Shown here one piece after another: positions 17,201 to 40,211 of a DNA stretch of 64,000 bases (position 1 is the stretch's first letter; every line of letters starts with the position of its first letter). This DNA comes from Xestospongia muta. Its lineage: Eukaryota; Porifera; Demospongiae; Haplosclerida; Petrosiidae. The stretch covers positions 8,931,156 through 8,995,155 of the forward strand of contig OY848918.1 in the NCBI GenBank assembly GCA_963693285.1, in the 5' to 3' direction. The notes beneath the pieces are model-generated. The model saw only the letters and a list, made by a program, of their open reading frames with translations, did no database searches and was not told where the DNA came from. The position numbers were made by a program, and so were the translations under genes.

Positions 17201-20200
17201 TTAGTGGGTGATAGAATATTTTATCTTGTAAATAAACAAGGTGGATCATTTAAACTGGGAATTTCCAACATCATACAACGTATGTTTCTTGTTACATATG
17301 CAGTTTAAATATCTTTTCTTTTCAGGTCCAACTGATGTTCTACCTCCATTTGAAGTATGCCTTCTTATTAAAGTAGTTTATACTGAAGCACCTATCACAT
17401 TGTCCTTTGAGATAACTGATGGTGGCAATATTAAGTCAGTTCAATGGTGGATTAATGGGGTCCTAGTTACCATTAGTGGAAAGTTCTCCATTGATTCAAA
17501 TACTCGGGCTCTCACTATTAATAATGTAACTTTTGATGACTATGGTTTCTATCAAGCAGAAGTAATTACTGATCAGTCTGTTCGTGCAAAGCTCAATATT
17601 TTTCTACTTTTTGTAAAATGTAAGACAATGAACTTAACATTTAAGAACACTTTATTAGAAAGAACATTTATTAATCATGCGGTCTTAAAATCAAGCTGTT
17701 GTGTTAGCCAAAAATTTCCAAACTAGAATTAGCTTTGTTTGCAAGGCATGCAATAAAGACACTCATTCTATAACCCCATGCTAATACCTTATGTATTATT
17801 CAACATCAAGGACACCTCTTTACTAAATACACTGCTCCCAAGATTTTAATGTCTACTATAGAAACCTTTTGTTTCATTTATCATCACACAAGTTTATTGC
17901 AAGCAATTTTACTGTAAATTCCTTCATTTCTTTATTGTAGTTGGACCAGCCCATGTCATATCCAGTACTGATGATTTCATTGCTCCTCAATCATCTAATA
18001 TTACATTGGAATGTGTAGCAAGTGGAGCTCCACCCATAACATACTCATGGCGTAAAGATGGTATCATGTTGACCAATGGAGGGCGAATTCAGGGAGCTAA
18101 CACCTCCCAGCTTGTTATCATCTCAATGAATGTCAGTGATATCGGACATTATGACTGTCATCCAGAAAATAGTATACGTACTCTCAACTATTCAACAACT
18201 GAAGTTGGCATCAAAAGTGAGTCTATGCTAGGATGAATGGACAGGCAGATAGATGGATGAGTGGACAGGTAGATGATAGATGAATGGACAGGCAGACAGA
18301 TGGATGAATGGACAGGCAGATAGATAGATGAATGGACAGGCAGATAGATAGATGAATGGACAGGCAGATAGATGGATGAATGGACAGGTAGATGATAGAT
18401 AAATGGACAGGCAGACAGATGGATGAATGAATGGATAACCAAATGAATAGATGAATGGATAAGCAGATGAATGGATGAATGAATAAACAGATGGACAGAT
18501 GGAAACTAGATGGACTAATGGATTGGTGGGATTCATTCCAAGAGGGCACTTGATGGTTTCTATTATGACAAATTAGAAGTTAGCTCTAATTGAAAGATGT
18601 TAAAATTACTGCTTCACTTTAAAGAAACTATACAATTCATTAATTAAGAATTCCACAGGTTACTATACAATTGTAATAGCAAGTCTGTACAAGACCATTC
18701 ATTATACGTGAACTGATGATGAATTTAATGATAGTGGTACTTGTGTTAGAATTAATTACAATTACTACTGAGCTAAATATTCTATACTTAAGTTAGTAAT
18801 ACATTCATATAAAGTACTTGTCTTCACTCATCCTTGCAAGTATTCATATCATATCTATATACATATCTTGGTATAACACTTACCCTACTGCTTGTAGGAG
18901 TAATATCAACACAGACGTAATTTATTGTGATAGAATGTTATTAGTGTGATTGTGATTTGTCTAGAGTAATTGTTGAATTTGTAATTATGTTCTCTCTCTC
19001 TCTCTCTCTCTCTCTCTCTCTCTCTCTCACTCTCAAACCTTTCTTAACATCTTTTCTCATTCAGTACCACTTGCTGTCAATAGATTAAATCCACAGACAA
19101 TACCTGGTCTAGTTCCTGCAGCTCCTAATGGATATACTATTACTCCACCCAATAAGATCACCATAACTTCATCTGGAGATTTAGTGACTATGACATTAAG
19201 CACTGGTGACTCTGGGACCTACACTATTACATCTCCTAATTTCAATGGAACTATCATTATTGAACTGACAGTATTTGGTTAGTGGGAAGTAAATATCATC
19301 ACCTTCCACCTTCACTTCATTTTCATTATCTAGAACCAGCATATGTTATTGATATTACTGATGATCAAACAGCTACTAATGGTAGTACAGTTACAATAGA
19401 GTGTACTGCTGGTGGTACTCCAAGTGACTTCACCTATCAATGGATGAAAAACGGTGTCAATATTTCAGGAGAGACAAACTCAACATTAACAATATCTAGT
19501 GTTACTATCAGTGACATTGGAGAATACAAATGTACTCCATCTAATTCAAGGGGCAACACCAACAGTTCTTCTACCATACTTAATGTCAATAGTAAGTGCA
19601 CGTATATATTTTAGATAATAATCTCTCTCTCTCTCTCTCTCTCTCTCTCTCTCTCTCCTCTCTCTCTCTCTCTCTCTCTCTCTCTCTCTCTCCTCTCTCT
19701 CTCTCTCTCTCTCTCTCTCTCTCTTCTCCTCTCCTCTCTCTCTCTCCCCTCTCTCTCTCTCTCTCTCTGCTCTCTCTCTCTCTCTCTCTCTCTCTCTCTC
19801 TCCTCTCTCTCTCTCTCTCTCTCTCTCTCTCTCTCTCTCTCTCTCTCTCTCTCTCTCTCTCTCTCTCTCTCTCTCTCTCTCTCTCTCTCTCTCTCTCTCT
19901 CTCTCTCTCTCTCTCTCTCTCTCTCTCTCTCTCTCTCTCAGTTCCCCTGACTATTGATGGCTCATCACCTCAGACAATACCTGGTCTAGTTCCTGCAGTT
20001 CCTAATGGATATACTATTACTCCACCTAATCCTAATATCACCATAACAACATCTGGACATTTAATAACTATGATATTAAATCCTGGTGACTCTGGGACCT
20101 ACATTATTACATCTCCTGATTTCAATGGAGCTAGTGTTGTAATTACATTGAGAGTACATGGTTAGTTTCAATCTAAATAATTTATCAATTCTTTTTGTCT

Positions 20201-40211: not shown

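Follow-up and report, generated by a model that had tools for sequence, protein, structure and literature searches.

Sponges reject grafts and sort their cells by means of receptors that are poorly known. Usherin is a single-pass protein, as are the Alr receptors of Hydractinia, which belong to the immunoglobulin superfamily (IgSF) and carry few domains. The available portion of one account describes ADGRV1 (VLGR1) as an adhesion GPCR of ~6,300 aa with 35 Calx-beta repeats, acting with usherin in ankle links, which are thin fibres between membranes (PMC7642844). Adhesion GPCRs of the sponge Amphimedon, as far as the accessible text of their description goes, combine Ig, EGF, HRM, GPS and 7tm_2 domains, and the ligands of adhesion GPCRs are mostly single-pass proteins (PMC4302439). 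The titles and abstract openings of the open-licence literature yielded no sponge Ig array of the kind reported here: two genes of the demosponge Xestospongia muta with one ectodomain start in common, each with its own array of 66 exons that are nearly identical, and leading to two different outputs.

The window analysed was a stretch of 64,000 nucleotides (positions 8,931,156 to 8,995,155 of contig OY848918.1, assembly GCA_963693285.1), and coordinates given without a prefix are positions within it. The gene was modelled as 76 exons spanning 14270-40211 (+), with an uninterrupted frame, a predicted product of 6,130 aa and a terminal stop only. Such an open frame is far beyond chance and shows an intact predicted model of a giant single-pass IgSF receptor in a demosponge; together with the avoidance of stops set out below, it rules out a pseudogene. 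The exons flanking the array (seven upstream and three downstream) were picked by hand on splice motifs and frame, and the splicing of the array to the FN3/transmembrane (TM) exon is likewise predicted from the open frame. The original prediction had assigned the array to one receptor gene; a single open model bears this out, but the gene exceeds the range that had been given, starting at 14270 and running to 40211.

The model runs from a signal peptide through unique Ig exons and the array to an FN3/TM exon and a tail, with the signal peptide and TM segment called by hydropathy as the sole method. Exon 1 (14270-14318, +) supplies the start codon and the predicted signal peptide (hydrophobic window at residues 4-22). 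Six unique exons follow on the same strand (14581-14865, 15371-15745, 16891-17038, 17083-17279, 17326-17619 and 17941-18216), placed by splice sites and frame; they encode Ig domains plus one 125-aa exon and are also found in sibling genes. The N-terminal 541 aa match Pfam Ig_3 in three stretches. Beyond the array, one exon (38975-39691, +) carries an Ig-like remnant, an FN3-like domain (Pfam fn3, 24.6 bits, below the cut-off of 25) and the TM segment, a hydrophobic stretch at residues 6026-6063, and has one match genome-wide (7/7 candidates scored). Two tail exons (39867-39894 and 40067-40211, +), the second ending the frame, encode a sequence that is basic, then Ser/Glu-rich and acidic, and the predicted tail holds no Yxx[ILVP] motif. 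By hydropathy the gene thus has the signal peptide and single TM of an IgSF receptor, with a weak third window (1.62) lying within the array; neither GPS/GAIN nor 7TM was found in the model, which finishes with one TM and the tail.

Other frames lie in and around the gene. The receptor intron 15746-16890 holds a 233-aa open frame (16044-16745, +) matching Swi5 (PF07061, 7.5e-19), a predicted DNA-repair gene nested in the receptor-gene intron. A 155-aa frame at 60-527 (+), with a hydrophobic stretch, several tyrosine motifs and no significant Pfam match, looks by eye like the end of another putative single-pass receptor. Downstream, a single-exon frame at 42116-43357 (+) combines ATP_bind_3 with a zinc ribbon, and we take its product to be a CTU1-like tRNA 2-thiolation enzyme; a 455-aa frame at 53593-54960 (+) has a Core-2/I-Branching glycosyltransferase domain (3.2e-31).

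The array itself occupies 19065-38656 (+) and comprises 33 B, 28 A and 5 C exons, which were recovered exon by exon in the order that had been predicted. All 66 exons have an AG acceptor, a GT donor, a length divisible by three and no stop, with phase 1-1 throughout, and together they contribute 5,293 residues of the product. The 65 array introns measure 43-93 bp, save for one of 350 bp (19592-19941, +), mostly (TC)n by Tandem Repeats Finder (TRF) and the exon map. Intron lengths vary by single bases; exon lengths are all multiples of three. The predicted period of about 573 bp over most of the array is matched by 24 of the 28 whole B-A units, at 569-576 bp. TRF, whose longest period is 500, did not report the array, and the window has no N anywhere. 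Simple repeats surround the array, as (TC)n and (GA)n runs at 19622-19939 and 40989-41319 and a minisatellite at 18231-18501.

Three zones can be told apart. The 5' edge (exons 1-8; 19065-21644, +) consists of divergent units, the first four exons being orthologous to exons 1-4 of a paralogue described below. Exons 9-48 (21719-33102, +) form a homogenised B-A core, delimited by exon and intron identities and the unit matrix, in which introns are 93.1% and 96.4% identical and exons 96.6% and 96.8%, so that the earlier description of introns as alike as exons was about right. Within it, units 15-18 (exons 29-36) have a second copy 2,859 bp further on, in units 20-23 (exons 39-46; both copies within 27440-32532, +), with identities of 1.000, 0.997, 1.000 and 1.000. 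The 3' part (33159-38656, +) includes the five C exons, starting at 33461, 35263, 35913, 36563 and 38375; the genome holds five near-identical C copies, all in this array, and the next best match is 48% (150/207 candidates scored). At the protein level the A units of the array comprise 21 distinct variants and the B units 22.

The Ig label given to these exons in the original prediction stands for A (Pfam Ig_3, 59.9 bits) and C (I-set, 42.4 bits), which like the N-terminal exons are Ig domains by curated models; A also matches contactin-2, titin and Dscam by sequence. It is less direct for B, a cysteine-free domain of 73 aa without a Pfam match at E<=1, which is Ig-like by profile: a nine-row B profile picks up Ig domains of Robo2 (9.5e-6) and contactin-2 (1.9e-5). 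AlphaFold2, given 19 B sequences of the window, predicts seven strands (pLDDT 67), and a Foldseek search with this model returned 91 PDB matches up to E 10, the best at E only 2.0, with MuSK, NCAM2 and LAG3 at the top ranks mixed with unrelated folds. Profile and model make it probable that B is a short Ig-like domain lacking the disulfide. The B-strand cysteine is kept in all 28 window A units and the F-strand cysteine lost in 17; A units without the latter number 6/33 in the paralogue and 0/22 in a further array on C10. Each of the five C units has a single cysteine, and 22 of the 44 array cysteines are without a canonical partner. An extra cysteine ahead of the tryptophan is seen in 27 of the 33 A units of the paralogue.

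Sibling genes on the same chromosome, new relative to the original prediction, place the window gene in a family. Comparison of exons shows it as one of four predicted genomic copies of the same N-terminal exons, two of which bear large B-A arrays; of the 125-aa unique exon the genome holds four copies, each of them on contig C2 (12/12 candidates scored). B-like exons occur at five places in the genome, with 93 matches (97/97 candidates scored): the window, the paralogue G2, C10:4.568-4.587 Mb, C9:1.584 Mb and a broken remnant on C4. G2 lies at C2:10.605-10.623 Mb, 1.65 Mb from the window gene, and its array of 33 B and 33 A exons equals the window's count of 66. Its unique 5' exons have 77-94% protein identity to those of the window gene, and its frame, followed from the ATG across the array and on into two Ig exons and an EGF exon, has one stop. 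That stop is an in-frame TAA in exon 64 (an A exon), which, being phase 1-1, splicing could leave out; alternatively, this allele may be a truncated one. Downstream of the array, Pfam finds GPS (2.3e-9) and 7tm_2 (6.8e-7 and 2.6e-9), so G2 is adhesion-GPCR-like by predicted domains, with GPS and 7TM 3' of an array whose continuous frame was traced to the first EGF. A Calx-beta-like piece after the G2 array gave no Pfam match and was tentatively set aside as an intron relic on hand-read phases.

An array-less sibling at C2:10.5375-10.5455 Mb carries the unique exons and no B exon. After them come Ig and EGF, a piece resembling HRM (21.9 bits, short of the 26.2 cut-off), GPS and 7TM. DNA alignment places the G2 array directly after the last unique exon, where ~20 kb in G2 stands against ~285 bp in the array-less sibling, with flanking pieces aligning at 79-96%. 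The intron ahead of the window array contains a 24-bp minisatellite (18231-18501, +; TRF) that DNA alignment also finds in both siblings and that may have aided the start of the array. The 5' half of the window gene aligns with G2 at 85-94% in the main pieces, and no DNA match was obtained between the 3' ends of the two genes; the siblings thus have the beginning of the ectodomain in common and vary in array and in output. The fourth sibling, at 10.656 Mb, has no B match nearby (search matches and one 1-kb piece examined); within ~3 kb it has, by eye, a likely single-pass segment and a tyrosine-bearing tail, and this segment resembles in DNA the gene upstream of G2, in which Calx-beta-like exons were read by eye.

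Further relatives include the C10 array (22 A and 22 B, all open), in whose gaps the exon finder returned nothing. By eye, its gene (C10:4.555-4.605 Mb, - strand) has its own signal-peptide-like start and sets the B-A units among cysteine-rich exons and long PTS (mucin-like) exons. The cluster at C9:1.584 Mb has three B and two A exons. A 7TM query gave at least 175 matches (150/248 candidates scored), clustered at C2 10.49-10.74 and 14.4-14.86 Mb and on C3, C5, C7 and C12, a very large adhesion-GPCR-like set.

Comparison of the window and G2 arrays shows how such arrays evolve: by tandem block duplication and homogenisation that spare the edge units. Edge exons are orthologous between the two arrays (identity 98.1% for B1, 97.3% for A2, 99.5% for B3 and 93.3% for A4), and most inner units have been homogenised separately. 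Most inner A exons form array-specific groups of 20 window exons (support 0.867) and 26 G2 exons (0.945), and 15 inner B exons of the window form one group (0.997). Window B9-B17, by contrast, cluster with three exons of G2 (0.976), as do the two C9 exons with others of G2 (0.92), a less clear-cut grouping which suggests that certain variants either are older than the split or were transferred from one array to another. G2 also contains a run of 12 consecutive units that recurs 13 units further on (a shift of 7,415 bp), 6,885 bp of it mismatch-free. These near-perfect blocks, of four units in the window and 12 in G2, are by their identity recent tandem duplicates, so variation in copy number between individuals is likely. 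Core identities and near-perfect blocks together uphold the prediction of a homogenised and expandable array.

Selection was assessed between and within arrays. Window against C10, pN/pS was 0.36 for A and 0.50 for B, indicating constraint between arrays. As distinct changes over all window units, replacement to silent counts were 83:43 for B and 79:43 for A, at or below the neutral expectation; no excess of replacement changes was found among window units (units, not alleles, being compared), and positive selection among units, looked for in these changes, had no support. Stops were absent from the 66 exons where 248 distinct changes would have produced 7-9. Stop avoidance and between-array constraint argue that the exons are translated and kept, and the units, read in this way, are individually near-redundant, with no sign of diversifying selection among them. 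Some counts lean the other way: core B exons have a pairwise pN/pS of 1.48, which as distinct changes becomes 17 replacement to 5 silent (p 0.50-1); C pairs reach 1.83 from very few changes; and the A consensus of the window core differs from that of G2 by 14 replacement and 3 silent changes (raw counts).

The explanation that we favour, tentatively and at somewhat less than even confidence, is by analogy that the product would serve as a long adhesion link in the manner of ADGRV1 and usherin, with the array-bearing 7TM sibling as its counterpart. An Ig-like domain is 3.5-4.5 nm long, and 66 domains of this size would make the array protein a chain of ~230-300 nm joining cells, or cell and matrix. 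Linkage would come from a multitude of identical contacts, each of them weak; length and avidity would therefore outweigh the sequence of any single unit, as near-neutral change among homogenised units would suggest. Since the same modules occur on a 7TM sibling, the window protein, with its single pass, could be the partner, ligand or competitor of that sibling, and the 7TM sibling would read engagement or tension of the link. In favour of a long adhesion link we count the open 76-exon frame, the avoided stops, exon lengths in multiples of three and the constraint between arrays; the common 5' exons and the array on the 7TM sibling, alongside a sibling without the array; the homogenised units and near-neutral replacement, which fit repetition and not unit identity; and the match of A to adhesion proteins such as contactin-2. 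Against it we count the 17 of 28 A units short of a canonical cysteine, a loss that could make a mechanical chain less strong; the stop that interrupts exon 64 (an A exon) of the 7TM sibling, whose frame was traced to the first EGF; and the near-neutral change, which equally fits a functionless array.

That last point is the starting place for largely neutral growth, in which short symmetric exons and introns tolerate expansion and array length has no tied function. Cysteine loss in A, change near neutrality within the array, phase 1-1 exons that can be duplicated or skipped with the frame unharmed, and a sibling that retains the receptor parts without an array all accord with it; stops and frameshifts are nonetheless avoided and change between arrays is constrained, as expected of exons that are translated and selected, and we regard such growth as unlikely. 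An assembly artefact, with few units in the real array, is highly improbable. An assembler could create the mismatch-free repeat of G2, and the published assembly has 186 gaps according to the accessible part of its description (PMC12398682). Most window units nevertheless differ from each other, three large arrays (window, G2 and C10) stand at three separate places, and the window is free of N; the same partial source gives PacBio Sequel IIe long reads as the basis of the assembly and 16.1-18.9 Mb, elsewhere, as the uncertain stretch of chromosome 2 (PMC12398682). Distinct units, three large arrays and the open frame led us to reject artefact as the main cause for most of the array, although near-identical blocks could still be miscounted.

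The remaining alternatives concern what the ectodomain recognises. Sensing of microbes or symbionts, by an antenna-like receptor family within the large adhesion-GPCR set with microbial or environmental ligands, would suit the size of that set and the finding that in other sponges microbial patterns elicit a response from an adhesion GPCR and from genes with Ig domains, as reported in the available part of one study (PMC6208332); it is an unlikely reading, for homogenised units make a poor repertoire and carry no diversifying signature. Rather unlikely, too, is the polymorphic self/non-self receptor of the original prediction, in which unit number or string would differ by individual and matching arrays would signal self. 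Recent near-perfect duplicates do predict length variation, the array does hold many distinct protein variants, and allorecognition is shown by sponges and other colonial animals, with Hydractinia Alr highly polymorphic in the portion of the source at hand (PMC8129030). Yet replacement changes are not in excess within arrays and homogenisation lessens the differences between units, so this function is so far unsupported. A variant that we consider quite improbable joins recognition to the gene pair: the window protein would be a trans ligand or cis decoy of its 7TM sibling, and the fit of drifting B-A strings would report self. If true, recognition would work by repeat strings, not by point-polymorphic domains.

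The locus allows a direct test, in which variation in array length and string between individuals is set against graft outcome, and the array-less copy is a natural comparison. Should the adhesion link hold, a sponge would have arrived by another route at a giant adhesion-GPCR-like ectodomain, which vertebrate ADGRV1 builds from other repeats.

The window gene is a member of none of the ADGRV1, usherin or adhesion-GPCR families, and its working mode alone is compared with theirs: the array domains are Ig-like, and neither the Calx-beta nor the laminin/FN3 repeats that mark the ADGRV1/usherin family were found in the array. Likeness to ADGRV1 and usherin lies in a giant repetitive ectodomain on an adhesion-GPCR-like protein (G2), which would act with a single-pass one. 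The array differs from the Calx-beta repeats of ADGRV1 in being made of Ig-like units, 93-100% identical within the core, and the window gene is without GPS or 7TM. It and its 7TM sibling, unlike ADGRV1 and usherin, have a common ectodomain, and the link that they would form is a putative one. With the chains of I-set domains in titin, hemicentin, contactin and Dscam the array has its general architecture in common. Titin is intracellular and hemicentin secreted, contactin and Dscam are far shorter, and the domains of these proteins are mostly old and diverged. Exclusive exon choice of the Dscam type is not indicated, although phase 1-1 exons would permit skipping. Like Hydractinia Alr, the window gene is a single-pass IgSF gene for which action by recognition has been proposed; unlike Alr, with its few domains and a diversity that comes from allelic differences, it has 66 domains in its array. 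The siblings of the window gene have the Ig/EGF/HRM/GPS/7TM combination of Amphimedon adhesion GPCRs, whereas the window gene itself is without the 7TM end, and the accessible part of the Amphimedon account describes no such array (PMC4302439).
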